Positions 8,359 through 61,637 of a DNA stretch of 64,000 nt are shown here, piece after piece (the first letter of the stretch is position 1; every line of letters starts with the position of its first letter). The position numbers and the translations under genes are program-made. The DNA comes from a virus, in IMG/VR virus record IMGVR_UViG_3300008259_004660, positions 1 through 64,000 of that record. One strand, 5' to 3'. The notes under the pieces are model-generated. The model ran no database searches, was not told the DNA's origin, and worked only from the letters and a program-made list of their open reading frames with translations.

Positions 8359-8386
8359 TTGACTTGAACGCGATGTTCGATAATTA
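8359..8386 (+). promoter_or_regulatory. Candidate promoter for the structured RNA and tmRNA
   Basis: TTGACT 8359-8364, 16-nt spacer, TAATTA 8381-8386. The start would be near 8393, about 25 nt before the structured RNA and 210 nt before the tmRNA. Confidence 0.5.
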
Positions 8387-8416
8387 TTGTTACTGTTCTT
8401 TGAATAATAATTTTTG

Positions 8417-8596
8417 AAACATGCAGGGTAGTTAAAAGGCCAGACTTTGGAAAAAGTTTGGTCATTCTTCAGCGACAATCCTAGTAGGCATCAACGCTAT
8501 ATGCTTGTATAAAATTGCCGAAGTCAAGAAGATAGGTCGAGTCACCCAAATGTGGTTCCGGTACCGAATGCCCTAACATCGGTCCCTGCATGTTTT
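8417..8596 (+). ncRNA. Structured RNA candidate directly upstream of the tmRNA
   Basis: A 12-bp perfect terminal stem, AAACATGCAGGG (8417-8428) with CCCTGCATGTTT (8584-8595), extendable by a G-T and a T-A pair, encloses about 155 nt. Inside are at least one long hairpin, GGCCAGACTT/AAGTTTGGTC (10 bp with G-T pairs), and a GGCA/TGCC helix near 8493-8522. The base composition is less AT-rich than flanking DNA and there is no open frame. The 3' strand of the stem ends 7 nt before the tmRNA begins. It could be an independent small RNA released during tmRNA maturation. I could not match it to a known family. Confidence 0.6.
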
Positions 8597-8602
8597 ATTT
8601 TC

Positions 8603-8996
8603 GGGCGCGTTCTTGGATTCTACTATATAGTATAGGTACAGGCCGCATGCACAGAGTCCAAAGTCTCTGTATAATACCCATTGGAAAAAATAAATGCTAA
8701 GAGAAATCTTGCAAAGGTATCTTTCCTAAGCGTTCGCAAGAATGCCGATGTTGAGATGCTAGCCGCAGCCTAATTAGTGCTGCCCGTTGTCCTTGTGACG
8801 CAGATAACAAGTCAACAACGTCAAACATCTGCTGGTCATTATAAGGCAGAGAGTCGGTAATAATGACGAGTCAATACAGAACTCTCAACTTCTGAATGGT
8901 GCTCTACCAAATTCAGTCGGATTATAAGAGATAAGCATGTATATGTTTGTGGTTATATTATACAGCACGCGGGTTCAACTCCCGCCGCGTCCACCA
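8603..8996 (+). ncRNA. ssrA: tmRNA (transfer-messenger RNA)
   Basis: 394 nt including encoded CCA. The acceptor stem is GGGCGCG/CGCGTCC with the third pair G-T (the alanine identity pair), the T arm is GCGGG-TTCAACT-CCCGC, and the 5' part has the tmRNA signature TTCTTGGATTC. A run AAAAAATAAAT precedes the resume codon GCT at 8696, as in E. coli (AAAAAATAGTC before GCA). The tag frame is 25 codons (8696-8770), begins AKRNLAKVS, ends VEMLAAA, and stops with TAA at 8771. The C-terminal LAA-type end fits ClpXP-directed degradation. tmRNAs are known in some large phages. Pseudoknot helices were not traced in full. Confidence 0.93.
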
Positions 8997-9025
8997 TATT
9001 TACAGATATATAAGAAAAAAATTTC

Positions 9026-9053
9026 TTGACGAAATGATTTTCAAATGTATAGT
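9026..9053 (+). promoter_or_regulatory. Sigma70-like promoter of the barrel gene
   Basis: TTGACG 9026-9031, 16-nt spacer, TATAGT 9048-9053 followed by TAT. It leaves an unusually long leader of about 45 nt before the ATG at 9106. Confidence 0.7.
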
Positions 9054-9105
9054 TATTCATACTTTACGAAACGTGAAGTATTAAAACAATAATATACAAA
9101 AATAT

Positions 9106-9822
9106 ATGAAGAATAAAATCCTAGTATTAATCACAGCACTTATTGCAGCAGTAGCAGTAAATGCTGCACCAGTAGCACTAAGTGCAAATGCAACATATCA
9201 CACCAAGTACTTTGACAAGGGCTTGGTTGCGTTCGAAGATGTTGCTGTTGCAGGAGCTACACTGGAAGTCTACAATTTTGTTGCAGGTGTAAATACCTTC
9301 AACACATTGAAGGACACCACAACTGGAAAGTATACTGCAAGTGCTGGCTTGTTCAAGCGCACTGATCTGTCGCTCGGCTACAAGTTCACATCGCCGTTGG
9401 CCAATCTAACATTGGGCGGTACATACAAGAACTTTGCCAAGAGCGTATCAAATCTTTCCAGCAACACTGAGCCATTTGCTCTATTGAATGGTACATTCTT
9501 TGGTACACGCGCTACGTGGGATGCACGCTATCGCAACGATCTAAAGAATCGCACCAACAACACCGAGGCAAATCTCCGCTTGCCATTTGGTTTCCAACAC
9601 CTCAAGTTGGTTCCAGCAGTTGGATACGGTTTCAACGACCTTGGTGCGGATACGATTGCTCAGTACAAAAATGCAAAGCAATATGCCGTCGTTGGCATTG
9701 GTTTGGGATATTACACAAAGTATGCCACATTGAATGTTGATTTTTCTCAACTACGTGATGGTTTGATTACCGCAGGAAACACAGTAAACAGTCTTTCTGC
9801 CGGTCTTTCTGTAAAGTTCTAA
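9106..9822 (+). CDS. Outer-membrane-type beta-barrel protein with signal peptide
   Basis: 238 aa. Signal peptide (KNKILVLITALIAAVAVNA, cleaved before APVAL), then alternating amphipathic beta strands ('DLSLGYKFTSPLANLTLGGTY', 'KLVPAVGYGF', 'YAVVGIGLGYYT') ending in the C-terminal Phe typical of outer-membrane barrels. No specific porin family recognised. A monocistronic unit with its own promoter and terminator. Codon use is richer in C/G third positions (AAG, CTG, CGC) than in neighbouring genes, suggesting high expression or recent capture from a bacterium. A phage-encoded envelope protein could alter host permeability or block superinfection. Confidence 0.7.
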   Translation: MKNKILVLITALIAAVAVNAAPVALSANATYHTKYFDKGLVAFEDVAVAGATLEVYNFVAGVNTFNTLKDTTTGKYTASAGLFKRTDLSLGYKFTSPLANLTLGGTYKNFAKSVSNLSSNTEPFALLNGTFFGTRATWDARYRNDLKNRTNNTEANLRLPFGFQHLKLVPAVGYGFNDLGADTIAQYKNAKQYAVVGIGLGYYTKYATLNVDFSQLRDGLITAGNTVNSLSAGLSVKF

Positions 9823-9844
9823 TAAACTAATAAGCTTATATCGC

Positions 9845-9880
9845 AAAAAAGAGCCTCATTAAATGTGAGGCTCTTTTTAT
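9845..9880 (+). terminator. Rho-independent terminator
   Basis: Stem GAGCCTCA/TGAGGCTC preceded by an A run and followed by TTTTTATTTTT. The next gene starts at 9885, immediately after the T tract. Confidence 0.88.
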
Positions 9881-9884
9881 TTTT

Positions 9885-10952
9885 ATGAAACTATTATATC
9901 TAGCAAGACGCCAACTTGGAGATAATTTGTTCATGGTTCCACTGTGGAAAAAATTGGCGGCTGAATATGAACTATACTATCTTGGTAGAGAAGATCTATT
10001 TCCAGTAGTAAAAAGATATAACCTTTTCAAAGAATACATCAAGGGATGTAGATATTCTGATAGAAATGATGCTTGTTTGGAAAAGGCGTCAGTGGATAGA
10101 ATAAAAGAAATTTTCTCAGATAAAAATGAAAGCTACATGGTATACGACTTGGATAAATTTTCCATATTCATGAACAATCACCCAGAACTTCAATATATCA
10201 AAAGACATCCTCGGTTACTGAATGATATGCAAGTATCGGAAAAACTTTATAGTAACAATGGGACTGTTATCATAGGCGAAACCAAAAAATCATTACTAAG
10301 ATATCAATTTTATACACTGGAAGAGTTAGAGCACAAAAGTTTTAAAACCGATATGTCTCCGCCGAAAAATTTATCAAATAACGACACGGTCATCATATAT
10401 CAAGGATCTGATGAAGAATGGAGAAAATTACCAGATGGTGTTATATTGGAGTTTGCAAAACAACTTCCTCATGCAATATACTTCATAACAAAGGCGGCGT
10501 TGGAAAAAATTAACAACCAAAATATTTCAGTCAAGTTCGTTCTGACTAAGCCATATAATGTTGAAGGGTTGCTGGAAATAATTAAAATATTTGAATCTTA
10601 TCCAAAAGTCATGATAGGACCAGATTCAGGATTGACACAACTTGCATTGTCGTATGGTATACCTCAAATATGGATGCAATCCAGAATAAGACCTGAAAAC
10701 GTGATTGATCCTATACATTTTCACCTGATACGAATATACTTCAAAAATAAATTGACTTGTTTGAAAGATTGTTCTGGGTGTGCAATTTCAAGAGAACATC
10801 CAAATGAGTTACAAAACACTCCATTTTTATTAAAGGAACCATTTTTGCATAAACAATTTCTTAAATGCCATTCTAAAGTTTTACCACCGTCATGTTTAGA
10901 TTACAGCGTAGATGAAGTAAAAGAAATCATATCAATGATAGATAGTGTTTGA
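9885..10952 (+). CDS. GT9-like (heptosyltransferase-fold) glycosyltransferase
   Basis: 355 aa, GT-B architecture. N-terminal 'LLYLARRQLGDNLFMVPLWKKLA' matches the R-x-x-x-GD acceptor-site start of ADP-heptose transferases. The C-terminal half has 'VIIYQGSDEEWRKLPDGVILEFA' and 'MIGPDSGLTQLALSYGIPQIWM', the nucleotide-sugar-binding D-S-G-x-x-x-x-A block. A Cys-rich stretch (CLKDCSGCAIS) follows near residue 290. Likely transfers a sugar from a nucleotide donor to a surface glycan or virion protein. It is separated from the main glycosyltransferase array at 18-32 kb. Confidence 0.7.
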   Translation: MKLLYLARRQLGDNLFMVPLWKKLAAEYELYYLGREDLFPVVKRYNLFKEYIKGCRYSDRNDACLEKASVDRIKEIFSDKNESYMVYDLDKFSIFMNNHPELQYIKRHPRLLNDMQVSEKLYSNNGTVIIGETKKSLLRYQFYTLEELEHKSFKTDMSPPKNLSNNDTVIIYQGSDEEWRKLPDGVILEFAKQLPHAIYFITKAALEKINNQNISVKFVLTKPYNVEGLLEIIKIFESYPKVMIGPDSGLTQLALSYGIPQIWMQSRIRPENVIDPIHFHLIRIYFKNKLTCLKDCSGCAISREHPNELQNTPFLLKEPFLHKQFLKCHSKVLPPSCLDYSVDEVKEIISMIDSV

Positions 10953-10976
10953 CAAAATATATATTTTGTGCATACT
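10949..10976 (+). promoter_or_regulatory. Promoter overlapping the stop codon of the GT9-like gene
   Basis: TTGACA 10949-10954 contains the upstream TGA stop (10950-10952). A 16-nt spacer leads to CATACT near 10971-10976. The favoured ATG at 10984 follows 7 nt later. Confidence 0.6.
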
Positions 10977-10983
10977 TGATTGC

Positions 10984-11934
10984 ATGATTTTACCACCCAA
11001 TATTGTTCCTTCCCTATGTTGTATCCATGTAGGGCTACAAGAACAAAAGATCAAGTTCAATGTAATGACGTATGCCCAATACAAGAAATTGGGTAAAAAA
11101 GAAGCAATGAAAGTTCTTGCTGATCGTTCACTTAACAACATCAAGACCATTCACGCTATTCTAAAGGAATGTGCCAAGAATAATTGGAATTATCGTATTG
11201 GTAGCAATGTATTTCCATTGATGACACACCCCGACCTAGATTTCACTGTAGATGATTTTTACAATGCAGATGAAATTTATGCTGAATTTTCCGCTGCCGC
11301 ACAAACAATCAGGCAGAACAACATTCGTTGCAGTATGCATCCTGACCAGTTTGTTGTACCTGCCAGCCCCAACCCCAAAGTGGTAGAGAATTCTATTAGA
11401 GACTTGGAACAACATGCCATGATCATGGATATGCTTGAATTGCCCCAGTCATATGAAGCTCCCATTAACATCCATATGAATTGCTACAACGATGGCAAGT
11501 TCAGCGAAGTTGTTGATAGACTTGAAACTGTTCTCAAGCGTATGTCAAAGCCAGTAACAAGCAGACTAGTTTTTGAGAACGAGGACAAGGGTAAAAGCTG
11601 GACTGTTTGTAATCTATACGAATATCTTTACAAGCGTGCTGGTATTCCGATTACTTTCGACAACCTGCATCACCAATGCAATCACAATGACACCAGCGAG
11701 CAATATGCATTTGAGCTTGCATTATCCACTTGGCCCAAAGATGTGGTTCCACTGTTCCATTTCAGCGAATCTCTTGTCGGCAATAATCCTCGTGCTCACG
11801 CGGATTTTCCTACAATGCTTCCTGCCATCTATAAGAACTACAATGGTGAACTTCATCTTGACTTTGAGTTCAAGATGAAAGAAATCGCGATTAATAAGAT
11901 TTCTCGCGAAAAGTTATTGACAATTGCTGGTTAA
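10984..11934 (+). CDS. uvsE: UV damage endonuclease (UvsE/UVDE family)
   Basis: 316 aa from the ATG at 10984. The frame could begin 39 nt earlier, but that region is occupied by the promoter. TIM-barrel UVDE motifs: 'NIKTIHAILKECAKNNWNYRIGSNVFPLMTHP', 'CSMHPDQFVVPASPN' (metal-binding His), 'INIHMNCYNDG' (His), 'LVFENEDKGKSWT' (Glu), 'FDNLHHQCNH' (Asp/His), 'PLFHFSES'. It nicks DNA 5' to UV photoproducts using Mn2+ and starts an alternative excision repair route. Full family length. It likely repairs phage DNA in sunlit habitats. Confidence 0.92.
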   Translation: MILPPNIVPSLCCIHVGLQEQKIKFNVMTYAQYKKLGKKEAMKVLADRSLNNIKTIHAILKECAKNNWNYRIGSNVFPLMTHPDLDFTVDDFYNADEIYAEFSAAAQTIRQNNIRCSMHPDQFVVPASPNPKVVENSIRDLEQHAMIMDMLELPQSYEAPINIHMNCYNDGKFSEVVDRLETVLKRMSKPVTSRLVFENEDKGKSWTVCNLYEYLYKRAGIPITFDNLHHQCNHNDTSEQYAFELALSTWPKDVVPLFHFSESLVGNNPRAHADFPTMLPAIYKNYNGELHLDFEFKMKEIAINKISREKLLTIAG

Positions 11935-11984
11935 TCCACATAATGTATTTTGTTCCAATAAACAAAAATAAACTAAAAAAACAT

Positions 11985-12200
11985 ATGACAAAGCACAATA
12001 AGACAAAGAATGGTCGCAAGATCAATACCTACGTCCGCAACGAAAAGTATTCTATTTCGTTCACTCGCCCTATCGAGGGTGTGAAGGATGAAAGAATGCA
12101 TCTAAACGTAACTGGAGTTAATCCCGTTACCAAGAAGATGAATAAGGTTCAGTTGAACGGTCGCGCTATTGCTATCTTGCGCAAGCTCCTAGCAGCGTAA
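11985..12200 (+). CDS. Small basic protein of unknown function
   Basis: 71 aa from the ATG at 11985, chosen over the earlier ATG at 11943 for its AAAAAACATATG context, seen at other starts here. Lys/Arg-rich N-terminus (TKHNKTKNGRKINTYVRNEK), then a short beta-rich section and a helix ending in LRKLLAA. Possibly nucleic-acid-binding. Followed by a terminator. Confidence 0.55.
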   Translation: MTKHNKTKNGRKINTYVRNEKYSISFTRPIEGVKDERMHLNVTGVNPVTKKMNKVQLNGRAIAILRKLLAA

Positions 12201-12224
12201 AAAGTTGAAAAGGTTATAAAGTCA

Positions 12225-12254
12225 AACCCACGGCATAAACCCCGTGGGTTTTTT
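12225..12254 (+). terminator. Rho-independent terminator
   Basis: Stem AACCCACGG/CCGTGGGTT with a short loop, followed by TTTTTTATT. The next promoter begins 6 nt later. Confidence 0.9.
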
Positions 12255-12259
12255 ATTGG

Positions 12260-12288
12260 TTGACATTTTGGACTTCATCATCCATAGT
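12260..12288 (+). promoter_or_regulatory. Sigma70-like promoter of the RNA ligase gene
   Basis: TTGACA 12260-12265, 17-nt spacer, CATAGT 12283-12288 followed by TAT. The ATG at 12299 is 10 nt after the -10. Confidence 0.75.
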
Positions 12289-12298
12289 TATATTTCTT

Positions 12299-13414
12299 AT
12301 GAAAATTGATTTAGAGTCCATTGACAAAGAATCATTTATGGTTCATCAACATAAAATAGGAGAACACGAAGTAACACTTGTTCAACCTATCCACATTGGA
12401 GCGACTTGGAACAGGGGTAATCTTATATTTCGTTCCTCTGTTTGGGATAAAGAAGGCAATCCCGTATCTCTTTCTTTCAAGAAGTTTTTCAATTGGGATG
12501 AAAAGCCTGATATCGATCCTGCACCAGAAACTTTAGAAGGCGCAAAGCTTTTAGAAAAACTGGACGGATCTACTCTAATTATCTCTCGCTACAAGGGTAT
12601 TACAGTTATGCGTACACGTGGAACTGTAGATGCATATCAGCAAGCAAACGCCGACGAGCTTACATTTTTGCGTGAAAAGTATGATAAGTTTTTTGAATTT
12701 ATAGAAGCACAAGAAAACACTTCTGTTTCTTACATCTTTGAATGGTTATCACCATCTAACCGTATTGTATTGGACTACGGAAACGACCCAGATATGGTTT
12801 TAATCGGCGTGATATTTCACAACGATTATTCTATGATGTCACAAGATGGACTAAGCACTGTTGCATCACAGCTTCAGCTTCGTCGTCCAAAGCTTTATTC
12901 ATATGACTCTATTGAGGAGATGAAGACTAGCGTGGAAGCATTACGTGATCAAGAAGGTCTTTGTGTATATTACAAGGAAGAGCAGTGCATTCGTAAAGTA
13001 AAGAGCGCACACTATTTGTATCTTCATAGAGCAAAGAGTGAAATTTCTAGCATAGACAAAGTTATTGATGTGTATATTGATTGGTTCATGGAGCGTCATA
13101 AAATTTCGCCTGAAGCAACTGGATATCCTGATTTCTTCAAGTATCTTACTGAAAAGTTTGATTACGAAATCGCAACAATGGCGCAAGGTCACGCATCTCG
13201 TATCTGTGATGCTATGAAGGAAGTGAAAAAGATAATGGATGCTTTGGTTCTTTTTTCGTTCCGTCGTATCAATATTCCTCGTAAGCAAGCAGCAGCAGAA
13301 ATATTACAAGCGTATGGCAGCACAGGCAGAGCAGCTATTGTATTCAAGATGCTTGACGCGAAGTACATTGGTGCCGATGACTACAAGAAACTGCTATACC
13401 AAGTCCTCAAATGA
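12299..13414 (+). CDS. rnlA: T4 Rnl1-type RNA ligase
   Basis: 371 aa from the ATG at 12299; an earlier in-frame ATG lies inside the promoter. The nucleotidyltransferase motif I is 'LLEKLDGSTLI', with the AMP-accepting Lys at about residue 87. Motif III-like 'SYIFEWLSP', motif IV-like 'QEGLCVYY' and motif V 'RKVKSAHYLYLH' follow, all close to T4 RNA ligase 1. The C-terminal helical domain (about 240-371) is also Rnl1-like. In T4 this enzyme reseals tRNAs cut by host anticodon nucleases. It fits with the tRNA genes and with the macro/cREC/phosphoesterase genes at 5.6-8.3 kb. Confidence 0.88.
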   Translation: MKIDLESIDKESFMVHQHKIGEHEVTLVQPIHIGATWNRGNLIFRSSVWDKEGNPVSLSFKKFFNWDEKPDIDPAPETLEGAKLLEKLDGSTLIISRYKGITVMRTRGTVDAYQQANADELTFLREKYDKFFEFIEAQENTSVSYIFEWLSPSNRIVLDYGNDPDMVLIGVIFHNDYSMMSQDGLSTVASQLQLRRPKLYSYDSIEEMKTSVEALRDQEGLCVYYKEEQCIRKVKSAHYLYLHRAKSEISSIDKVIDVYIDWFMERHKISPEATGYPDFFKYLTEKFDYEIATMAQGHASRICDAMKEVKKIMDALVLFSFRRINIPRKQAAAEILQAYGSTGRAAIVFKMLDAKYIGADDYKKLLYQVLK

Positions 13415-13571
13415 TCATCATAGGCGTTCGTGCGAGAGTAAGATGGGATATGAAACTCGCACGGATGCGCTACGTGATGCTAAAAGAATATTTATGGAGT
13501 ATAGATCCGAGAAGACGCCATACAAATGCAATCATTGTGGGTATTGGCATTTAGCGACAAAAGAAGATTGA
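13377..13571 (+). CDS. Small zinc-ribbon protein
   Basis: 64 aa from the ATG at 13377, overlapping the RNA ligase 3' end by 38 nt. This start keeps the first Cys. Pattern C-x-S-K-x(2)-Y-x-T-x(2)-D-A and then 'YKCNHCGYWHLA' is a widespread small phage/bacterial treble-clef-like family that binds zinc through paired Cys and a C-terminal His. Function unknown, perhaps RNA- or DNA-binding. A shorter start at 13443 is possible but would lose the first Cys. The stop sits in a TTGACA sequence. Confidence 0.65.
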   Translation: MTTRNCYTKSSNDHHRRSCESKMGYETRTDALRDAKRIFMEYRSEKTPYKCNHCGYWHLATKED

Positions 13572-13602
13572 CATCTTTGATGCCATATAACAATATTTAT
13601 AC

Positions 13603-13800
13603 ATGATGGCAAAAACAACATATAAATTGGTCGAGAAAGCAGCAAAGCGGTTGGTAATTGGAGATAGAGTACCAAGTGCTTCTGGAAGAATACTTGTAGT
13701 GAGCCTAGTAGTTCAAAAAGCAAATAGAACCATTGTATTGTTTGATGGTGATATGGAGATTGATTTTGACCCATATTTTCAGATCAAAGTAATTGGATAA
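13603..13800 (+). CDS. Small protein of unknown function
   Basis: 65 aa. A basic N-terminus and a small beta-barrel-like body (RLVIGDRVPSASGRILVVSL, TIVLFDGDMEIDFD). ATATTTAT lies 2 nt before the ATG. No family recognised. Confidence 0.55.
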   Translation: MMAKTTYKLVEKAAKRLVIGDRVPSASGRILVVSLVVQKANRTIVLFDGDMEIDFDPYFQIKVIG

Positions 13801-13807
13801 ATAAGTC

Positions 13808-13836
13808 TTGACTTTTTATAGATTAAAAGTCATAGT
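13808..13836 (+). promoter_or_regulatory. Sigma70-like promoter of the HNH gene
   Basis: TTGACT 13808-13813, 17-nt spacer, CATAGT 13831-13836 followed by TAT. The ATG at 13854 is 17 nt later and has AAAGG before it. Confidence 0.75.
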
Positions 13837-13853
13837 TATACCATATAAAGGAT

Positions 13854-14522
13854 ATGGAAATGAATGTTATCAATCAACCAGTTTTATCTTTGAATGCTTC
13901 TTGGCAAGCTATTGGCACCAAGACAGTTAAAGATGCTTTTATAGCAATGCTAGGTGGCGACGGCGGAAAAAATGCTCCTGCTGTCGCGATTGATATGGAA
14001 TTTGAAATAGATTCTGACGGCAGTGTTGATTGGAACAGCCCAACCAATACAAATCCAGTAACTTGGGATATTTGGAAAACACTTCCTATCCGTGAATATG
14101 ACCTTGCTATTCATACTGGTAACATGACACTTCGTGTACCAAGAGTAATAATTCAGCCAAACTATGGTAAAATGCCAATGGTTCAGCCCCGCCCTACTAA
14201 GGAAAGTATTCGCAAGCGTGACGGTGGAGTGTGCCAATACACTGGTAAACCACTTTCTTGGAAAGAAGGCAATGTAGATCATGTTATTCCACGTTCACAA
14301 GGTGGTAAAAATACTTTTGAGAATATGGTATGGTGCCACAGAGATATCAACAGTAAGAAGGCGGATAAAACACCAGAACAAGCTGGACTTAGACTCATTC
14401 GTAAACCTTATGCTCCAAAAAGTATTCCTGTTAGTGCAACAATAAACATTGCACATCATCCAAGTTGGATTCATTTCTTGGATAATGTCTCCGAAGTAAG
14501 AGGGTTTCAAATAGCATCTTGA
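13854..14522 (+). CDS. HNH endonuclease family protein
   Basis: 222 aa. The N-terminal domain ('VLSLNASWQAIGTKTVKDAF', 'LRVPRVIIQPNYGK') and the HNH core ('DGGVCQYTGKPLSWKEGNVDHVIPRSQGG', then 'FENMVWCHRDINSKKADKTPEQAGLRL') match a conserved bacterial and phage HNH family with Cys-x-Y-T-G-K in place of a full zinc knuckle. Catalytic His-His/Asn positions look intact. Unlike the intergenic homing type at 1294, this family is often a resident phage gene and may take part in DNA packaging, recombination or host DNA degradation. Its own promoter precedes it. Confidence 0.85.
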   Translation: MEMNVINQPVLSLNASWQAIGTKTVKDAFIAMLGGDGGKNAPAVAIDMEFEIDSDGSVDWNSPTNTNPVTWDIWKTLPIREYDLAIHTGNMTLRVPRVIIQPNYGKMPMVQPRPTKESIRKRDGGVCQYTGKPLSWKEGNVDHVIPRSQGGKNTFENMVWCHRDINSKKADKTPEQAGLRLIRKPYAPKSIPVSATINIAHHPSWIHFLDNVSEVRGFQIAS

Positions 14523-14547
14523 CAACAAAGTTGCCCCGAAGTATAGT
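14519..14547 (+). promoter_or_regulatory. Promoter overlapping the HNH stop codon
   Basis: TTGACA 14519-14524 contains the TGA stop 14520-14522. 17-nt spacer, TATAGT 14542-14547, ATG 12 nt later at 14560. Confidence 0.72.
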
Positions 14548-14559
14548 GGGCCATATTTT

Positions 14560-14922
14560 ATGGAATTCACATATCTATTAATTTTTTCTTTGTATGCAAT
14601 TTGTGGTTACTTGCTGCACAAGCAGGTAAAAATATTGCGTATGTTGAAAGAACAAGATATTACACATAAGAAATCCTTGGCAGAAGCAGGAAGTGCCATA
14701 ACAGAAACACTAAAAGTTGCATTTGATAATTTGAAGAAAAATTCAAATGATCATAACAAATTTAATACTAAAATCGTGGAACACAATTCTAGAATACACA
14801 GAGTAGAACAACATATAAGCAGAACTGCCAAAAATTTTGATAATAAAAAAGTTAAAGCCGATGATGAAGTCGCCTTCACACGCAGAAAAATAAAAGATGG
14901 AGATGAAAATGAAAACGAATAA
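14560..14922 (+). CDS. Membrane-anchored coiled-coil protein
   Basis: 120 aa. An N-terminal membrane helix (FTYLLIFSLYAICGYLLHK), then about 80 aa of heptad-like charged helix ('KSLAEAGSAITETLKVAFDNL', 'NKFNTKIVEHNSRIHRVEQHI') and an acidic tail. No family recognised. It may organise a membrane-proximal complex. Overlaps the next gene by 26 nt. Confidence 0.6.
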   Translation: MEFTYLLIFSLYAICGYLLHKQVKILRMLKEQDITHKKSLAEAGSAITETLKVAFDNLKKNSNDHNKFNTKIVEHNSRIHRVEQHISRTAKNFDNKKVKADDEVAFTRRKIKDGDENENE

Positions 14923-15124
14923 TGATGGTCCAAAAATGATGGAATTTGGAAAATTGGATATTGGTGGAAAATTTTATCTTTCCAACCCGTCCAACTTAAC
15001 CGAGAATGCCGCTTACACAAAAATGGCTACCCAAAAAGGAATTGATGGAAAATGGTCAAATGCCAAAAATGCACTGGGTCTTGTAACCTTCGTTCAATAT
15101 GATAAGCGCATTTGGAAAAAATGA
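14897..15124 (+). CDS. Small protein of unknown function
   Basis: 75 aa. The start could be 14897, 14903 or 14909 (three close ATGs). The body 'FGKLDIGGKFYLSNPSNLTENAAYTKM' and 'GLVTFVQYDKRIWKK' suggests a small beta-rich fold. Its stop overlaps the next ATG (ATGA), so it is coupled to the clamp-loader-like gene. Confidence 0.55.
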   Translation: MEMKMKTNNDGPKMMEFGKLDIGGKFYLSNPSNLTENAAYTKMATQKGIDGKWSNAKNALGLVTFVQYDKRIWKK

Positions 15125-15582
15125 AGAAAAAAGTAAAAGAAACAAAACCCAAAGTAAGATCATTGTTTGATCATGTGAATGAAATACGTGTGGGAAAAAA
15201 TCCTAAGTATTTTGAAACTCTTTCTGATGAAGATAAGAAGACTTGGTCGAATTATATGGTATGCAGAGTTCTGAGCATGCAAACCGATCTAATTGATGTA
15301 ATCAATGATTTACAGTATTATCAGGATAAATTGTCTCCAGAACAATTCTACAGACTGTGTATCGCTTCTACACCAAAAGGAAAAGGATATTTTCCATATA
15401 TAAAGAATTCTACAGAAAAATACAACAAGTCATTACTTACATTGATGTGCATTCACTTTCAAGATAGCACGCGAAATATTGTTGAATACATGAAACTCAT
15501 TCCCAGAGATGATGTACGAAGTATACTTAGAAAATACGGATATTCCGAAGATCAAATTGAAGAGATGATGGAAAAGGCTTGA
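15121..15582 (+). CDS. Putative DNA polymerase clamp-loader small subunit (T4 gp62-like)
   Basis: 153 aa from the ATG at 15121. An in-frame TTG lies earlier. The pattern 'SLFDHVNEIRVGKNPKYFETLSDEDKKTWSNYMVCRVLSM' then 'LSPEQFYRLCIASTPKGKGYFPYIK' follows the phage clamp-loader subunit A family, which caps the gp44-type AAA+ ring. No gp44 or sliding clamp lies in the window, so this rests on sequence pattern only. The TGA stop is inside the next -35 box. Confidence 0.6.
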   Translation: MKKKVKETKPKVRSLFDHVNEIRVGKNPKYFETLSDEDKKTWSNYMVCRVLSMQTDLIDVINDLQYYQDKLSPEQFYRLCIASTPKGKGYFPYIKNSTEKYNKSLLTLMCIHFQDSTRNIVEYMKLIPRDDVRSILRKYGYSEDQIEEMMEKA

Positions 15583-15606
15583 CCATTTCAAATCAAGTGG
15601 TATCTT
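15579..15606 (+). promoter_or_regulatory. Promoter overlapping a stop codon
   Basis: TTGACC 15579-15584 contains TGA 15580-15582. 16-nt spacer, TATCTT 15601-15606, ATG 8 nt later at 15615. Confidence 0.6.
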
Positions 15607-15614
15607 GAGAGATT

Positions 15615-16253
15615 ATGACGAACAAAAAAGTTATTGGTCTTAGCGGCGTGGCAAGAGCAGGTAAAGATACATTCGCTGGAATACTTGCTTCTAAACTACA
15701 ACAAGCTGGTAAATCAGTGAGACGAGTTGCTTTGGCCGAACCTCTAAAATATCAAGTGGATGATTTTCTTGTAAAGAATCTTGGTATCACCGCGTTTACA
15801 CCAGTAACTGAGCAAAAAACTCTTATTAGACCTATGCTTGTTTGGTATGGAGATGCACAAAGAAAATTGACTAATGGAAGATATTGGATTGACCTTGCAA
15901 AGAAAACTATTGAAGAATCCAATTATGACTATTACATTATCACTGATGTGCGCTATGATGCTTATGAGAAAGATGAGCTTTATTTTCTGAAGAACGAAGT
16001 GAATGGCATTTTGTGTCATATCAGCAAATACAAAACCGTTGATGAGACCCAAGACGGTTGCCGTCTTATTGAAAAGAAATTTGTACAACCAGCAAACGAC
16101 CATGAAGCTGAAAATGATCCAAGGATTAAACGCGCAGCTGATCACATTGTTGAGTGGCCAGACGAAGGTAAGATGAATGAAGTGGAGCTTTTAATGAATC
16201 CTACACTAAATGAATATGTTGATGAGTTTATTGAAAAATTTAAACTGATCTAG
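15615..16253 (+). CDS. Deoxynucleoside monophosphate kinase (T4 gp1-like)
   Basis: 212 aa. The P-loop 'GLSGVARAGKDTFAGILA' at residues 8-25 and the following 'VRRVALAEPLKYQVDDFL' and 'LVWYGDAQRK' match T4-type dNMP kinases, which phosphorylate dGMP, dTMP and modified dCMP for phage DNA synthesis. Near family length (T4 gp1 is 241 aa). Its TAG stop shares a CTAG tetramer with the stop of the convergent gene at 16250. Confidence 0.83.
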   Translation: MTNKKVIGLSGVARAGKDTFAGILASKLQQAGKSVRRVALAEPLKYQVDDFLVKNLGITAFTPVTEQKTLIRPMLVWYGDAQRKLTNGRYWIDLAKKTIEESNYDYYIITDVRYDAYEKDELYFLKNEVNGILCHISKYKTVDETQDGCRLIEKKFVQPANDHEAENDPRIKRAADHIVEWPDEGKMNEVELLMNPTLNEYVDEFIEKFKLI

Positions 16254-16696
16254 TCTTCATATTCCTCGTCGCTATCGTCATTATTATCATAATCATCTTT
16301 TGTCTCTTCTTCAAGTTCATTTTTTAGATTTACAAAATCTTCTTGAGTAAGTTCTAGTTCTGTGATTATGGCTGAAATTAAAAATGCCAATTCTTTTTTG
16401 CTGAAATTATTTTTCTTCAAAGCTTTTGAAATTTTTTTCGTCAATGCCAAAATCGTTTGCCGCTTATCTGAATCTTCTGTTTTGTAGATGATTCCCGGAA
16501 TTGGATTAGCTTTATCGTGCATGTTTGATATTTTAGAAAGCTCTTCTTCCAATAAAGTCTTGTATTCATTTTCATCTGACGCAATTTCCTTGATGAGCTT
16601 TTTGAGATCCTCGATGTCTTTTTTCTTCACAATTTTTGCCACCGTAAAAGTCTTCAAGACCCCAGTTTTTTGTAGAACATGTGTATATAGTTCCAT
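16250..16696 (-). CDS. Acidic protein of unknown function
   Basis: 148 aa. A mixed N-terminus (ELYTHVLQKTGVLKTFTVAK), a helical middle and a very acidic tail (DYDNNDDSDEEYED). An isolated minus-strand gene. ATATTTAT (minus strand, 16726-16719) lies 22 nt before the ATG, which would suit late expression. No family recognised. Confidence 0.6.
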   Translation of the reverse strand: MELYTHVLQKTGVLKTFTVAKIVKKKDIEDLKKLIKEIASDENEYKTLLEEELSKISNMHDKANPIPGIIYKTEDSDKRQTILALTKKISKALKKNNFSKKELAFLISAIITELELTQEDFVNLKNELEEETKDDYDNNDDSDEEYED

Positions 16697-16739
16697 AGTG
16701 TAAAATGCGTTGTTCTACATAAATATAAACTCAAATGAA

Positions 16740-16767
16740 TTGACACATCTCATTTTCCCCATATAGT
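16740..16767 (+). promoter_or_regulatory. Sigma70-like promoter of the nuclease gene
   Basis: TTGACA 16740-16745, 16-nt spacer, TATAGT 16762-16767. The ATG at 16777 follows after 9 nt, giving a predicted leader of only 2-3 nt. Confidence 0.75.
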
Positions 16768-16776
16768 ATTTCAATT

Positions 16777-17772
16777 ATGTCAACCGACCAAATTTCAACC
16801 AATCCAACTGAAGTTCTTCAAACAGAAGAACAAAAGAAACCAAAAACGGTAAGTTTTAGCCAATATGCTATGTGGTTGAAATGCCCACAACAATGGAAGC
16901 TATCATATATAGACAAATTAGCACCATACGAAGCAAGCATACATACTGTGTTTGGTACAGGTATACACGCAGCCCTTCAAGAGTATCTTAGGTTATTATA
17001 TACTGTAGGAACATCAGAAGCAGATGCATTGGATACATTTGCATTATTCAAGAAGGAGTATGAGGAAGGACTAAAAGAACTCAAGATTGCAAATGAAGAG
17101 CAGTTGAAGCTTGCTGAAGGCGAGTTAGACTCTCTTGGATTAATTACACCATCCACTGTATCAGAGTTTGAGCAAGATGGTAAAGTTATTCTTGATCACG
17201 TTTTGAGTTATGCACAGCGTAGTAAACATTTTCCAAGTAAGAAATATGAATTGGTAGGTATTGAGCTTCCTTTGGAAATTCCGTTGCGAAATGGAACTAT
17301 ACTTTATAAAGGATTTCTTGATATTGTATTTAGAGACAAAGATACAAAGAAGATTTTGATTCTTGATTTTAAAACCAGTACTAATGGTTGGAACAAATAT
17401 CAGAAAGCAGATAGAACAAAGATCGATCAATTACTTTTGTATAAGCGTTTTTATAATCAGATGTTCAAGGTTCCAATGTCTGACATAGAAGTTGAATTCT
17501 TTGTTGTCAAGAGAAAACTTTTAGAAAATGTTGAATTTCCACAACAGCGAATTCAAAGAATATCTCCTCCAGATGGAAAGATGAGTATGAAGGAAGTTGA
17601 AACTACTTTCCTAGATTTTATAAATAGTGGATTCACCAAAGAGGGTGAATATAATACTTCTGTGCCATTTCCTAAAAACCCCGGTAAAGCTCGCAAAAAT
17701 TGTAAATACTGTGTTTTTAAAACTCTTAAAAACGATAAAGGTGAGTTATACTGCAACGGTAAAGAGGGTTGA
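16777..17772 (+). CDS. Cas4/RecB-like PD-(D/E)XK nuclease with predicted Fe-S cluster
   Basis: 331 aa. Nuclease core: 'FGTGIHAALQEYLR' (His), 'LYKGFLDIVFRD' (Asp) and 'ILILDFKTSTNG' (D-x-K), the RecB/PDDEXK_1 motifs. Cys36 ('WLKCPQQW') together with Cys309, Cys312 and Cys326 at the C-terminus has the spacing of the 4Fe-4S cage of Cas4 and AddB. Such phage enzymes are exonucleases used in recombination or replication-fork processing. The first 25 aa are an unstructured extension. Its own promoter and near-leaderless start are clear. Confidence 0.85.
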   Translation: MSTDQISTNPTEVLQTEEQKKPKTVSFSQYAMWLKCPQQWKLSYIDKLAPYEASIHTVFGTGIHAALQEYLRLLYTVGTSEADALDTFALFKKEYEEGLKELKIANEEQLKLAEGELDSLGLITPSTVSEFEQDGKVILDHVLSYAQRSKHFPSKKYELVGIELPLEIPLRNGTILYKGFLDIVFRDKDTKKILILDFKTSTNGWNKYQKADRTKIDQLLLYKRFYNQMFKVPMSDIEVEFFVVKRKLLENVEFPQQRIQRISPPDGKMSMKEVETTFLDFINSGFTKEGEYNTSVPFPKNPGKARKNCKYCVFKTLKNDKGELYCNGKEG

Positions 17773-47720: not shown

Positions 47721-48572
47721 GTGTGGGCTGTGAATAACGGTCCACACATTTCCATTTTCAGCAAGGCACTGTATAGTAATTGGTGCCATTATCCTACTTA
47801 TAATCTATTATTCGATTGTGGCGAAGGGTGTGCTACTCATATTGGAAATCACCTCGCGGGTATTGACAGCATTTTTCTCACACATGATCATGGTGATCAT
47901 ACCCTCGGTATTCCAAGTGTAGTTGGATGTCGTAATGCTGGCAGAGGAATGAGTCGCAATAAAGACACAATGGAAAATAACAAACCGTTGTATGTATATT
48001 ATCCCGATGACAATTTCTTGATGAATGATCTTATCAAGTTTGTGCAATCTCGCACAGATGGATGGCTTCGTTATGACATGAAGTTTATTCCTATCTCTGC
48101 TGGTTTTGAAAAACAACTTGGTAAGAATGTATTTCTGCGTGCTTTCAATATGCAGCATCAAAAGAACAAAAGCACTCTGGGTTATGTTATTTACGAAAAT
48201 CGCACAAGACTCAAGAAAGAATATCAAGGGAAAGATATTCCAACTCTGATCAAGCATGGTGTTGACGGTAAAACTCTCAATGAGAATTATCGTGCCAACT
48301 TGTTCGCATATTGCTTGGATGCATATGCTATTCCAGATTATAATCAACTCATTGAGTGCAAAGATGTTATAATGGACTGCACATTTATCAACGCCGATGA
48401 TCGTGATGATCCTACGCACTTTACACTTGACGAAGCATATAAATTTTGTCAGTGTATCGGAATCAAAAACATAATTGCCGCACATCTGTCTGGTCGCTAC
48501 AATTATAATGAAGTATCCAAAGATTATCCCAGTATTAAATTCATCAATCCATATAAAGTAAACGAATTATGA
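47721..48572 (+). CDS. RNase Z-like metallo-beta-lactamase fold protein
   Basis: 283 aa, GTG start. 'LLFDCGEGCATHIGN' and 'SIFLTHDHGDHTLGIPSVVG' (the HxHxDH zinc motif), 'FNMQHQKNKSTLGYVIYENR' (His plus RNase Z-like segment), 'DVIMDCTFINADD' (Asp) and 'NIIAAHLSGRYN' (AxHxSxR), which is the RNase Z signature. RNase Z trims 3' trailers of tRNAs. The three tRNAs here already encode CCA, which usually blocks RNase Z, so another RNA may be the target. Promoter-like TTGACA lies 21 nt upstream but no clear -10. Confidence 0.85.
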   Translation: MWAVNNGPHISIFSKALYSNWCHYPTYNLLFDCGEGCATHIGNHLAGIDSIFLTHDHGDHTLGIPSVVGCRNAGRGMSRNKDTMENNKPLYVYYPDDNFLMNDLIKFVQSRTDGWLRYDMKFIPISAGFEKQLGKNVFLRAFNMQHQKNKSTLGYVIYENRTRLKKEYQGKDIPTLIKHGVDGKTLNENYRANLFAYCLDAYAIPDYNQLIECKDVIMDCTFINADDRDDPTHFTLDEAYKFCQCIGIKNIIAAHLSGRYNYNEVSKDYPSIKFINPYKVNEL

Positions 48573-56321: not shown

Positions 56322-56573
56322 ATGATTCAAATAATGGCGATTTATTTTGCTACACTGATCGTGGCGTGTGCGGTAAATTTTCAATATCGCAATGCTATCA
56401 AAGGTGACTATTTTGCCATAGCACTTACATCATGCTTGATTGGGTCGCTCAATTTGTTTATGCTCAAAACAATTCCACATGTAACTCAATTTGGAGAGGG
56501 GCTTGCTTATATTCTTGGTGGAGCATGTGGTGCAATCGGAGCAAATTATTTACACAAAAGATTTTTCAAATGA
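56322..56573 (+). CDS. Small membrane protein
   Basis: 83 aa. Hydrophobic helices ('IMAIYFATLIVACAVNFQYR', 'YFAIALTSCLIGSLNLFML', 'GLAYILGGACGAIGANYL'). Likely three-pass. ATGA overlap with the phosphoesterase gene. Function unknown. Confidence 0.58.
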   Translation: MIQIMAIYFATLIVACAVNFQYRNAIKGDYFAIALTSCLIGSLNLFMLKTIPHVTQFGEGLAYILGGACGAIGANYLHKRFFK

Positions 56574-57247
56574 CAAAACTAGTAGCAATTTCAGATACAC
56601 ATGGAAGCCATTGGAATGTGAAAGTTCCAGACGGTGATATTCTTGTACATGCTGGTGACTTTTGTTCTCATGGAAGTATGCCAGATGCATTGGACTTTTT
56701 GAAATGGTTCAACGTACATCCTCATAAGCACAAGATTATGATCGCGGGAAATCATGATTGGATTTGTGAGAGAGATCCAAATCTGTTTACACTCTTGTTG
56801 AACAATTTTCCAGACATAAAATACTTGGAAGATAACGCCTGTAAAATTGGGAATTTAAAGTTTTATGGCTCACCACAAACTCCTCGCTTTTTCAATTGGG
56901 CGTTCAATCGTGATCGTGGTGAAGACATCAAACAATATTGGGACGTTATACCAGATGATACTGATGTATTAATCACTCACGGTCCTCCACATGGCATTTG
57001 CGATGAAGCATACCGTGTTGGATTTAATACCACAGAGCATACTGGATGCAAGGATTTGCTTGACGCTACACTACGTATTGCTCCCAAGCTACATCTTTTT
57101 GGTCACATTCACTATTCTGGTCAAACATCTTATGTTGCTCCAAAAACAACATATGCCAATGTATCTATGCTCAACGAAGCATATTTGGTTTGGGGTAAAC
57201 CAATGATATTTGATATTGACAACAACAAAAATGTGAGCATAATCTAA
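56570..57247 (+). CDS. Calcineurin-like metallophosphoesterase (MPPED-like)
   Basis: 225 aa from the ATG at 56570. The longer frame runs through the upstream gene. 'LVAISDTHGSHWNV' (DxH), 'DILVHAGDFCSHGSM' (GD), 'KIMIAGNHDWICE' (GNHD), 'DVLITHGPPHGICD' (HGPP) and 'KLHLFGHIHYSG' (GHIH). The HGPP...GCxxL pattern is that of MPPED/UPF0046-type phosphodiesterases acting on cyclic or linear nucleotides. Third metallophosphoesterase of the window. Confidence 0.87.
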   Translation: MTKLVAISDTHGSHWNVKVPDGDILVHAGDFCSHGSMPDALDFLKWFNVHPHKHKIMIAGNHDWICERDPNLFTLLLNNFPDIKYLEDNACKIGNLKFYGSPQTPRFFNWAFNRDRGEDIKQYWDVIPDDTDVLITHGPPHGICDEAYRVGFNTTEHTGCKDLLDATLRIAPKLHLFGHIHYSGQTSYVAPKTTYANVSMLNEAYLVWGKPMIFDIDNNKNVSII

Positions 57248-57255: not shown

Positions 57256-57573
57256 ATGAAAAAATCTTCACTATCTGTGTTTGGTCTAACGTGTGGTATT
57301 ATTGCAACTGTGATGAGTGGAATATTATTTCCACTTGCGTTGATAACAAATTCATCAGCGGGTATTATATTTTTGGGATTCGTTGCTATATTCATCACTT
57401 TCATAGGTATGGTTGGAATTATTACTTCTACGATAAAACTTCTTATCACTGGAAATGAAATCGTGGTGGATCAGGAAAATAGAATTATAGCAAAACGAGG
57501 ACTTTGGTTTTCTCTAGTTCCTACTATCTTTTGGATTTTTACCTTTATCATGATCATTGGATCTATCAAATAA
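57256..57573 (+). CDS. Small membrane protein
   Basis: 105 aa. Helices 'LTCGIIATVMSGILFPLALI', 'IIFLGFVAIFITFIGMVGII' and 'WFSLVPTIFWIFTFIMIIG'. Sits between the phosphoesterase and the heme oxygenase with 8-9 nt gaps, so it is probably co-transcribed. Function unknown. Confidence 0.6.
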   Translation: MKKSSLSVFGLTCGIIATVMSGILFPLALITNSSAGIIFLGFVAIFITFIGMVGIITSTIKLLITGNEIVVDQENRIIAKRGLWFSLVPTIFWIFTFIMIIGSIK

Positions 57574-57582: not shown

Positions 57583-58128
57583 ATGAGTACACTAAGAGAA
57601 CTTACATCAGAGAATCACAAAAGAGCAGAAAACACATTGTTTATGCGCTTGTTTATGTCTAGAGGTCTTACAGAAGAAGAGTATATGGAATATATCACTC
57701 AACTATCTGTAATCTATACAGCACTTGAGTTTGCAGCTGAAAAGGTTGGCATTCTACAAGAACTTCAAGGTATTGAACGAGCAGCAAAAGTTCGTGCTGA
57801 TGTGGCTGAACTTAACAAGAAGCTTGGCAAACAGTCCCAACTCAATTGGGAAACGATGGCGTATTACAACCAAATCATACGAATGACTGACAAGAAAGAA
57901 ATTCTCGCTCATTTTTATGTTCGTTATGCTGGAGATATGTTTGGCGGTCAAATGCTCAAGTCTATTTCTCATGGTAGCGGAACAATGTATGAATTTGGAG
58001 ATAATCTTCCTGTTCTTCGCCAGAAAATGCGTGAACTTGCTACACCAGACTTGGCAGAGTATGCGAATGATGCATACAGTAAGAATATTCAAATATTAAA
58101 CGATATTATGAAGGTAAATAGTTTCTGA
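57583..58128 (+). CDS. ho1: Heme oxygenase (HO-1 family)
   Basis: 181 aa. Proximal heme-ligand His12 in 'LTSENHKRAENTLFMRLFMS', and the distal helix 'FYVRYAGDMFGGQMLKSIS' with the conserved GGQ at 121-123, both matching the HO-1 family of cyanobacteria and phages. It opens heme with three O2 and electrons to give biliverdin IXalpha, Fe2+ and CO. Slightly shorter than cyanobacterial HO1 (about 240 aa), as in phage versions. The bilin reductase starts 1 nt after its stop, so its product is almost certainly passed on. Confidence 0.93.
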   Translation: MSTLRELTSENHKRAENTLFMRLFMSRGLTEEEYMEYITQLSVIYTALEFAAEKVGILQELQGIERAAKVRADVAELNKKLGKQSQLNWETMAYYNQIIRMTDKKEILAHFYVRYAGDMFGGQMLKSISHGSGTMYEFGDNLPVLRQKMRELATPDLAEYANDAYSKNIQILNDIMKVNSF

Positions 58129-58129
58129 T

Positions 58130-58807
58130 ATGAGCGTCATATTCGACAAGATGAAAGTACTAGCAAGTGAACTCTATATAGAGATTGCTTCTGGTAATAG
58201 AGAAATTGAAAACTCCGATTTGGCAAAATATGCGTGGACAAACCGCATATTTCGCGGAGATAGATTTCGCCGTGGTCATCTTGAAGTACTAGATACCACA
58301 GAATCAAAGAAGATGTGGATAATGCATATCTGCATCTTTCCTCATCTTGATGATAGTTCTCCTATATTTGGATTTGATGTAATCTGCGGTGCCAACAAGA
58401 TCACAGGAGTATTCCTTGATTTTAGTATGGCTGATGAAAATCATCCTATGAATATTTGGTTCAAGGAAAGAACCAAAAATCTTGTATGGAAAAAAGATAG
58501 AGAATTGCCTGATTGGGGTAAGCGCATTTTTAGTCCAAACATGATTGCCGCTGGACAAGTTAATACTGATGAAGAACTAAATCAAATCATCGATGTGGCA
58601 AAAGATTGCTTGCATTTTTACGTAAACAATGTAGGATTAACCATCAGCAATGTTAGCAGTGTACTTGCGCACAATCATTATTGCGTTAATCAAAAACAGA
58701 ATGTTCATACACAAAGATTCCTTGTGAATTGTGGTTATGATCTGAAAGATGTAAACACATTCATTGACAAACATTTGTTCCCAGAAATTGAACCAAACTA
58801 TCCATGA
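58130..58807 (+). CDS. Ferredoxin-dependent bilin reductase (PcyA/PcyX/PebS family)
   Basis: 225 aa. Family blocks: 'RRGHLEVLDTTE' (Glu52), 'WIMHICIFPHLDDSSPIFGFDVICGANKITG' (His66 and Asp83, 17 apart as PcyA His88 and Asp105), 'GVFLDFSMADENHPMNIWF' and 'HYCVNQKQNVHT' (YCxxQxxNxxT). All three residues matching PcyA Glu76/His88/Asp105 are present. His favours the PcyA/PcyX branch over PebS, which to my knowledge has Asn at that site. It reduces biliverdin to a phytobilin (phycocyanobilin or phycoerythrobilin) with reduced ferredoxin. Product cannot be told from sequence. ATGA overlap with the next gene. Confidence 0.9.
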   Translation: MSVIFDKMKVLASELYIEIASGNREIENSDLAKYAWTNRIFRGDRFRRGHLEVLDTTESKKMWIMHICIFPHLDDSSPIFGFDVICGANKITGVFLDFSMADENHPMNIWFKERTKNLVWKKDRELPDWGKRIFSPNMIAAGQVNTDEELNQIIDVAKDCLHFYVNNVGLTISNVSSVLAHNHYCVNQKQNVHTQRFLVNCGYDLKDVNTFIDKHLFPEIEPNYP

Positions 58808-59388
58808 GTCCATCACTCGACAAACAACTCTGCGAAAAATATCCAAATATATTCTTGACTCAAGAATTGGGTACCTCATTTGGATTTGAGTGTGGAGACG
58901 GATGGTACAAAGTAATTGATATGCTTTGTATGGCTGCATCAAATACATACAGTACAGGTCTAAGAATAGACAAAGAGGATGCTGCCAAGTATGGCATTGA
59001 AAGTCCAGACGACGAGGCGGGCGAAAGATATTATTTCACTGTAGAATCTCCGCAAATTGTAGCTTCACAAGTGAAAGAAAAGTTTGGTTCACTCCGTTTC
59101 TATTACCGATTGGACTTTGACCCAAGAGTGACTGAACTTATCAAGACAGAAAAGTACCCAGAACTACAAAAGATCGTGGATAATTTTCATTTTTACTTCG
59201 ACGGTATTGTTTATATGGCAGAAATATTGTCTATCAATACCTGTGAAATTACCGGCAGAGAAGGTGAAATGCATGTAAGCAATGGTGGAAAAAACGGATG
59301 GTATAAAACTCTAAATCGTGAATATGCCAAATCTGAAGAGTTTTATGTAAGCCGAAATTATGTTCCATTTAAAGATATACCAAAATAA
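58804..59388 (+). CDS. Conserved phage protein of unknown function
   Basis: 194 aa. 'SFGFECGDGWYKVIDMLCMA', 'QVKEKFGSLRFYYRLDFDPRV', 'YMAEILSINTCEITGREGEM' and 'GGKNGWYKTLNREYA' are the blocks of a widespread phage/prophage family (FxCGDGW, VKxKFGxLRFY, CExxGxxG, WYxTLC). The Cys pair usual in that family is reduced to one here. Coupled to the bilin reductase by ATGA. Confidence 0.7.
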   Translation: MSPSLDKQLCEKYPNIFLTQELGTSFGFECGDGWYKVIDMLCMAASNTYSTGLRIDKEDAAKYGIESPDDEAGERYYFTVESPQIVASQVKEKFGSLRFYYRLDFDPRVTELIKTEKYPELQKIVDNFHFYFDGIVYMAEILSINTCEITGREGEMHVSNGGKNGWYKTLNREYAKSEEFYVSRNYVPFKDIPK

Positions 59389-60616: not shown

Positions 60617-61015
60617 ATGGAATTACATGAAAAAATAGACACCATAGTAAAGGAATATGCGGATGCTATACTCAATCGTGTAAAAAGTATATCACCCAAT
60701 ATCCCCTTGGTATCTGATTTTGAACGAGGTCCAAGTGAAGATGGAAAATATTACGCCTCCGTTTGTGACATTCAAACGGAGTATGGATTTGTAACAATCT
60801 TTCCAGATTTCAACAAAGAAGGTGCCAAAGCTGCTATATTAAATAGAGGATTGGTAAGAGCAATGGATTTGGAAGGATTTAATGAAGATGAAATCAATCA
60901 AGCAAAAGTGTATGGTGACCTTATGCCTTTCACGGAAGAATCGGTGGATATAATTGTGTTGGTGCTCACAGAAGATCTTGGACTCCAACATCAAAAAAAT
61001 TTAGACGATGAATAA
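60617..61015 (+). CDS. Protein of unknown function
   Basis: 132 aa, alpha/beta ('EYADAILNRVKSISPNIPLV', 'TEYGFVTIFPDFNKEGAKAA', 'ESVDIIVLVLTEDLGLQHQ'). Overlaps thyX by 8 nt. No family recognised. Confidence 0.55.
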   Translation: MELHEKIDTIVKEYADAILNRVKSISPNIPLVSDFERGPSEDGKYYASVCDIQTEYGFVTIFPDFNKEGAKAAILNRGLVRAMDLEGFNEDEINQAKVYGDLMPFTEESVDIIVLVLTEDLGLQHQKNLDDE

Positions 61016-61637
61016 CAATAATACTGTAGAATTAATTGGATATTATGGAAGCGATGAAATCCACGCTTGTTCGGCTTGGACTTCTACTAGCAGAGAGATC
61101 ACTGAAGAAAAACGTAATCGCATTCCATCTTTATTGAAGATGCTTGCAGATCATGGGCATCATACTCCGTTTGAAAAGTCAAGCCTTCATTTCCTTGTTG
61201 ATACAGATATTGCGTCACATATTCATATCATCAAGCACCGAATTGGTGTAAGTGTTAATGGTGAAAGCGCACGATATAAAGAAATCAAGCAAGACAAGTT
61301 TCTAATTCCAAATGATTGGCCAACGGAGTGGAAGGAATTGCTACAAGCATATACTGAAAAAGGAAATGAATTGTATCACAAGTGCGTTGCCGATCTTGTT
61401 AACAAGGGATACGACAAGAAACGTGTAAAGGAAAGCGCCCGATTCTTCAAGACATACAACAGCCAAATTTGCGCCGACGTAATGTTTAATTGGAGGTCAT
61501 TCTATCATTTCTTGGCACTGAGAAACAAGCCAGACGCTCAAAAAGAAATCAGAGAAGTTGCCGCCGAAATGCTTAATCTTGTTAAGAACATTGAAGGTAA
61601 TCCATTCAAGCACACAATCGACGCATTCAATCTATGA
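61008..61637 (+). CDS. thyX: Flavin-dependent thymidylate synthase ThyX
   Basis: 209 aa. The ThyX signature RHRxxSxxxxSxRY appears as 'KHRIGVSVNGESARY' at about residues 79-93. 'LKMLADHGHHTPFEKSSLHFLVD' supplies the folate/dUMP-site His-x-x-P-x-E, and 'QICADVMFNWRSFYHFLALR' the C-terminal substrate Arg segment. It makes dTMP from dUMP with FAD, NADPH and methylene-tetrahydrofolate. Works with the dUTPase at 32 kb. The first residue of the signature is Lys rather than Arg. Confidence 0.92.
   Translation: MNNNNTVELIGYYGSDEIHACSAWTSTSREITEEKRNRIPSLLKMLADHGHHTPFEKSSLHFLVDTDIASHIHIIKHRIGVSVNGESARYKEIKQDKFLIPNDWPTEWKELLQAYTEKGNELYHKCVADLVNKGYDKKRVKESARFFKTYNSQICADVMFNWRSFYHFLALRNKPDAQKEIREVAAEMLNLVKNIEGNPFKHTIDAFNL

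Follow-up and report, generated by a model that had tools for sequence, protein, structure and literature searches.

Organization of the locus

The window analysed here comprises 64,000 nucleotides from the start of an IMG/VR record of 184,824 bp, and all absences reported below apply to that record as it stands. We found in it an intact reading frame for a heme oxygenase (HO) followed by an intact one for a ferredoxin-dependent bilin reductase (FDBR) (Table 1). One base separates the TGA of the HO gene from the ATG of the FDBR gene, and both frames lie exactly where an earlier note on this DNA had placed two enzymes 1 nt apart. The whole record contains one HO and one FDBR. The cassette is located within a run of small non-structural genes, 9 nt from the gene upstream and overlapping the gene downstream; judged from this spacing, it is probably co-transcribed with its neighbours. 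Pfam and PHROG searches gave no match for either the small hydrophobic protein or the conserved protein that flank the pair. Small hydrophobic frames were also present upstream of HO in the related viral contigs L003, L004 and L006. The start of the metallophosphoesterase gene was set by the conserved beginning MTKLVAISD/MTRI and not by the longest reading frame.

Table 1. Genes of the HO-FDBR locus, with positions in the window.
Feature	Position	Strand	Product	Basis and conservation
Metallophosphoesterase, upstream of the cassette	56570..57247	+		PF00149, 41.1 bits; same place in L003, L004, L005 and L006
Small hydrophobic protein gene, directly 5' of HO	57256..57573	+		List of open reading frames
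HO	57583..58128	+	181 aa	PF01126, PDB matches, structural model, invariant residues
FDBR of the phage PcyA/PcyX lineage	58130..58807	+	225 aa	PF05996, 5owg, structural model, trees
Conserved protein gene, 4-nt overlap with the FDBR stop	58804..59388	+		Homologue after FDBR in L003, L004 and L006
ThyX-type thymidylate synthase, downstream	61008..61637	+		PF02511, 107.9 bits; same order in L003, L004 and L006

Family, residues and fold of the two enzymes

The HO scored 70.7 bits against PF01126 (2e-19; cut-off 23), and its best PDB relative by sequence was Synechocystis HO-1 (1we1, 3.6e-11). We located the proximal His (H12) and the distal helix G117-D118-x-x-G121-G122-Q123 (GDMFGGQ), both named in the earlier note as a proximal His and a GGQ helix; these residues were invariant across the phage HOs compared. 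The AlphaFold model (pLDDT 94.2) was matched by Foldseek to the HO structures 1we1, 4gpc and 1iw1. By family score, residues and fold, the product is a heme oxygenase, with a predicted activity of converting heme to biliverdin IXalpha.

The reductase scored 59.7 bits against PF05996 (4.2e-16; cut-off 31), PHROGs assigned it to a ferredoxin oxidoreductase family, and Foldseek matched its AlphaFold model (pLDDT 93.0) to PcyA (1.8e-12) and PcyX 5owg (7.8e-12). With a family score above the cut-off and an FDBR fold, it lies inside the family to which it had been ascribed. Its best PDB relatives by sequence were PcyX 5owg (9e-47) and then PcyA 2d1e (1.5e-11). Residues H50, E52, H66 and D83 aligned with His74, Glu76, His88 and Asp105 of PcyA, which bears out the equivalents of Glu76, His88 and Asp105 claimed before. 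The sequence matched PcyA and PcyX and not PebS; it reached 86.8 bits against the NCBIfam PcyA equivalog model, below the cut-off of 206, and 19.1 bits against the PebB model. The enzyme shares with PcyX a place in the phage lineage beside hemO, and differs from it in having Glu52 instead of Asp at the PcyA Glu76 site. It has the Glu76, His88 and Asp105 of PcyA and is placed below the PcyA cut-off and outside the cyanobacterial/cyanophage clade.

A Glu/Asp split among phage bilin reductases

We compared 165 aligned FDBRs at the column of PcyA Glu76, to which PcyX Asp55 was assigned through the 5owg alignment after subtracting an assumed eight-residue tag. Glu was present in 99 sequences and Gln in 2; Asp, which is also the residue of 5owg and of Pelagibacter phage Mosig, was present in 64 (many of the sequences are near-copies). 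The two enzymes with Gln (L007 8016-8666 and L050 near 6001-6669) carry naturally the exchange of the laboratory mutant E76Q.

For the FDBR tree the set was thinned to 71 sequences. All 31 Glu/Gln enzymes in it formed one group (support 92/98; 99/98 in an earlier tree), inside which the window enzyme grouped with those of L003, L004 and L006 (100/98). This tree, suggested as a check in the earlier note, placed the window enzyme apart from the cyanobacterial/cyanophage PcyA clade (100/100); in the earlier tree PebS of P-RSM6 was distant, on a long branch. In the HO tree, too, the partners of the Glu/Gln enzymes fell into a single group (99/90), and 99% of bootstrap trees had a single change; we therefore conclude that the pair travels together. 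With cyanobacterial PcyA as root, the FDBR tree had the Asp enzymes branching first and the Glu clade nested among them; this root is a long branch, in a tree from which bacterial AX-clade PcyA is absent. On the sequences, Glu may have been regained in a PcyX-like active site.

A search of 385 alphaproteobacterial genomes yielded two FDBR hits above the cut-off; one was a known Asp-type locus and the sequences of the other were too divergent for the tree. Asp-type HO and FDBR genes were also seen on contigs of metagenome-assembled genomes from four unrelated phyla (L101, L102, L103 and L104), all within the phage clade. These are probably viral contigs in host bins, and we set them aside as evidence for bacterial FDBRs.

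Prevalence, gene order and selection

Two scans of IMG/VR, with overlapping sets, gave at least 514 and at least 484 relatives of the FDBR, and a search of plasmids found none. HO was present in all but three loci of the first examined set and in 77 of the 78 loci of the second, usually touching or overlapping the FDBR gene. The FDBRs of L003, L004 and L006 (contigs of 31, 72 and 297 kb) were 79%, 79% and 74% identical to the window enzyme (range 73-79%). The three contigs share with the window the order metallophosphoesterase, small hydrophobic gene or genes, HO, FDBR, conserved gene, small genes and ThyX. The 297-kb relative, L006, has a homing-endonuclease-like frame between FDBR and the conserved next gene (8701-10056, minus strand).

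We estimated dN/dS between the window and these three contigs at 0.07-0.09 for FDBR and 0.07-0.15 for HO, values that are rough, with synonymous sites near saturation. Both genes are under purifying selection and are not decaying. The earlier note had named a chimeric cyanobacterial contig as an outcome that would undo its reading, and we consider such an artefact extremely improbable because the genes are intact, well modelled and selected and because the same neighbourhood recurs in related viral contigs. The sole point in its favour is that the sequence is a metagenome contig with unclosed ends. Synteny in three further contigs at 73-79% FDBR identity, the position of HO and FDBR in phage and not cyanobacterial clades, and dN/dS around 0.1 all speak against it.

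The phage genome

The record carries a T4-type terminase and a gp23-type capsid, matched by thousands of T4-like records, and a PF03237 match, together with Ig-like domains and DUF1800/DUF1501 genes, so the earlier description of a T4-like genome with Ig-like and DUF1800 genes holds. Microcystis phage Mel-JY01 had the nearest terminase and capsid (53.5% and 57.8%), followed by Flavobacterium phages immuto (50% and 56%) and Rhodothermus phage RM378 (34% and 37%). The reported lack of psb genes extends, for the psbA/psbD family (PF00124), to all 184,824 bp, and none of 44 related viral records had a psbA-family gene above the cut-off. Two related contigs gave PF00124 matches of 13.6 and 16.4 bits, which we rejected as noise; they contain internal stops and lie below the cut-off of 27. 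The gene for 5-ALA synthase (TIGR01821) was absent from the 184.8 kb and present in 6 of the 44 related viral records.

Several other genes were observed in this genome. A tmRNA (window 8603-8996, plus strand) matched the standard Rfam model over its full length (95.2 bits) and was not of the cyanobacterial type; ARAGORN read from it an unusually long tag of 25 residues. Adjacent DUF1800 and DUF1501 genes, unusual phage cargo, extend from window position 63564 to genome position 66324 (L008 1089-2324), and the DUF1501 gene has a twin-arginine-like start (TRREFLKVSS). L010 7465-9324 (genome 111465-113324) encodes a full-length DnaK that exceeds the NCBIfam equivalog cut-off, and the phage also has genes for HSP20, peptide deformylase and PhoH. 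A frame within window 38-17772 encodes a UvdE-type UV endonuclease (4e-43), and one within 32198-55807 (probably 47721-48572) has a metallo-beta-lactamase fold with a weak match to Apyc1 (anti-Pycsar; 4e-4).

Host of the phage

We examined the gene starts, taken as first-ATG guesses, and observed Shine-Dalgarno motifs at 0.02 against a background of 0.06 and T at position -1 in 62%. The 297-kb relative gave similar values (Shine-Dalgarno 0.00, T at -1 61%). A Flavobacterium phage and, in small samples, Bacteroidota plasmids also lacked the Shine-Dalgarno signal, and Persicobacter had T at -1 in 55%. The signal was present in Mel-JY01, P-SSM2, Mosig and two cyanobacterial plasmids, the plasmid samples again being small. 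Because Shine-Dalgarno motifs are absent and there is partial kinship to Flavobacterium phages, a non-cyanobacterial host, perhaps from Bacteroidota, is hinted at; the sequence data lean towards Bacteroidota or another Shine-Dalgarno-poor bacterium and away from a cyanobacterium. The best plasmid-borne matches of the phage DnaK were from alphaproteobacteria (about 61%), Parabacteroides (60%) and cyanobacteria (58%), at most about 61-64%. The Bacteroidota promoter pair TTTG/TAnnTTTG was not enriched in the phage genome, nor was it in the Flavobacterium phage used as a positive control. Octamers resembling late promoters (TATAAATA) occurred 28 times in the genome against 14 expected and 22 times against 6 in the 297-kb relative.

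Alternatively, the phage could infect a freshwater cyanobacterium and the cassette could supply the phycobilisomes of this host with phycocyanobilin (PCB), the role put forward for ho1/pcyA of cyanophages. Cyanophages do carry ho1, pcyA and pebS, and the nearest terminase and capsid, by a small margin, are from a Microcystis phage with a host known from its record alone. We regard this as quite improbable, since Flavobacterium phages are almost as close, psbA/psbD-family genes are missing from the record, and the gene starts differ from those of Mel-JY01 and the two cyanobacterial plasmids. The position of the FDBR outside the cyanobacterial/cyanophage PcyA clade and the standard type of the tmRNA are further points against it.

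Proposed function and product of the cassette

We consider it reasonably probable that the cassette is a co-expressed auxiliary metabolic pair of a T4-like phage infecting a host without phycobilisomes, and that it turns biliverdin most likely into PCB. In the scheme that we infer, HO would open heme to give biliverdin IXalpha, iron and CO, and the reductase would move four electrons from host ferredoxin to biliverdin, yielding a phytobilin, most likely PCB. A host ferredoxin is the presumed electron source because 2Fe-2S ferredoxin families had no match in the 184,824-bp record. The benefit might lie in turnover of host heme with release of iron, or in a bilin supplied to a host protein. The search for acceptors in this phage and in 26 related records neither bears out nor contradicts the light-sensing or phytochrome-related role raised in the earlier note.

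PCB is predicted because Glu, and not the Asp of PcyX, occupies the PcyA Glu76 site. Glu76 is a PcyA-specific residue that PcyX does not have, and the 18-vinyl reduction leading to PCB depends on it (PMC10151467). The reductase of the freshwater phage CB_2, which also lacks PcyX Asp55, makes PCB, and this was credited to the absence of that residue (PMC11480375). The family and PDB matches, catalytic residues, folds, co-occurrence with HO, paired trees and purifying selection are all in favour of a PCB pathway; the lack of an acceptor or a ferredoxin in the phage counts against it.

The reductase could instead be functionally a PcyX and, despite Glu52, convert biliverdin through 15,16-dihydrobiliverdin to phycoerythrobilin (PEB). 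The nearest solved relative, 5owg, is a PEB-forming PcyX, the rooted tree puts the Glu clade inside the Asp-type phage enzymes, and the sequence of an FDBR is not a dependable guide to its product (PMC13193486). We nonetheless hold PEB to be unlikely: where PcyX has Asp, the window enzyme has the Glu described as peculiar to PcyA enzymes that form PCB, and the phage enzyme that was assayed and lacks the Asp gave PCB. Somewhat below an even chance is our estimate for another possibility, namely that the purpose of the cassette is heme breakdown, either to free iron or to alter host heme or respiration. The reductase would then clear biliverdin and keep HO turning over, and the bilin would have no target. 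Neither a GAF-domain (phytochrome-type) nor a phycobiliprotein-family acceptor was found in the phage record or in 26 related records, iron supply has been considered as a role of such cassettes (PMC11480375), and heme breakdown would fit the cassettes of Pelagibacter phages too. On the other hand, cleavage of heme and release of iron need no reductase, and the conservation of active-site residues within each clade argues that a particular bilin matters. A role in heme breakdown is compatible with formation of PCB, and the two explanations overlap. Extending the PCB reading from the window phage to the clade, the sequences allow the more doubtful suggestion that the large phage Glu/Gln clade makes PCB, in part (the window phage included) in phycobilisome-free hosts, perhaps Bacteroidota, where the bilin would serve a yet unrecognised protein.

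Comparison with known systems

The HO-FDBR pair itself is already known, from hemO-pcyX of marine phages including Mosig and from the freshwater phage pair that makes PCB, and the window cassette alone reveals no new system. The surprise of the earlier note at such a cassette without photosynthesis genes is not sustained: the arrangement has been published for Mosig and for CB_2 (PMC11480375), and the FDBR has at least about 500 relatives in IMG/VR. What is new here is a clade-wide Glu/Asp split with a testable prediction of the product, and a hint of a host beyond the cyanobacterial, Pelagibacter and methanotroph cases. The window provides a nearly complete-looking, psbA-free example, from a whole phage clade that differs from PcyX at one specificity residue. 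The Glu clade, the Asp clade and the natural Gln variants of L007 and L050 allow a pair-wise test of the PCB/PEB determinant. This bears on the question, raised in PMC11480375, of the reason for a heme-to-bilin pathway in phages whose hosts do not photosynthesise.

The marine hemO-pcyX cassettes (Mosig EXVC030M and PcyX_EBK42635) are similar in that an FDBR from this lineage comes immediately after HO in a T4-like myovirus, where no photosystem gene is needed. Their FDBRs are about 38-40% identical to the window enzyme and have Asp where it has Glu. In Mosig, HO and FDBR overlap by 14 nt and a ferrochelatase and dioxygenase cluster lies alongside, whereas the window has no such cluster and a small membrane-type gene upstream; by terminase and capsid, Mosig belongs to a different phage lineage. 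The CB_2 cassette vhemO-vpcyA/X(-valaS) (Wegner et al. 2024, PMC11480375), which we compared by its description, is likewise a non-cyanophage pair without PcyX Asp55. It differs in having a 5-ALA synthase, absent from the window phage record, and in its proposed host, Methylocystis (PMC11480375).

The ho1, pcyA and pebS genes of cyanophages encode the same two reactions in T4-like phages, and the window enzyme shares Glu76, His88 and Asp105 with PcyA. The cyanophage FDBRs are 24-32% identical to the window FDBR and form a separate clade, and the window phage has neither psbA nor an evident phycobilisome host. The hemO-pcyA-alaS island of Bradyrhizobium ORS278 (AX clade) resembles the phage pair in its PcyA-type residues and in belonging to a lineage outside the cyanobacteria of which PcyX is also a member (PMC10151467); unlike that island, the phage pair has no phytochrome gene or alaS beside it.
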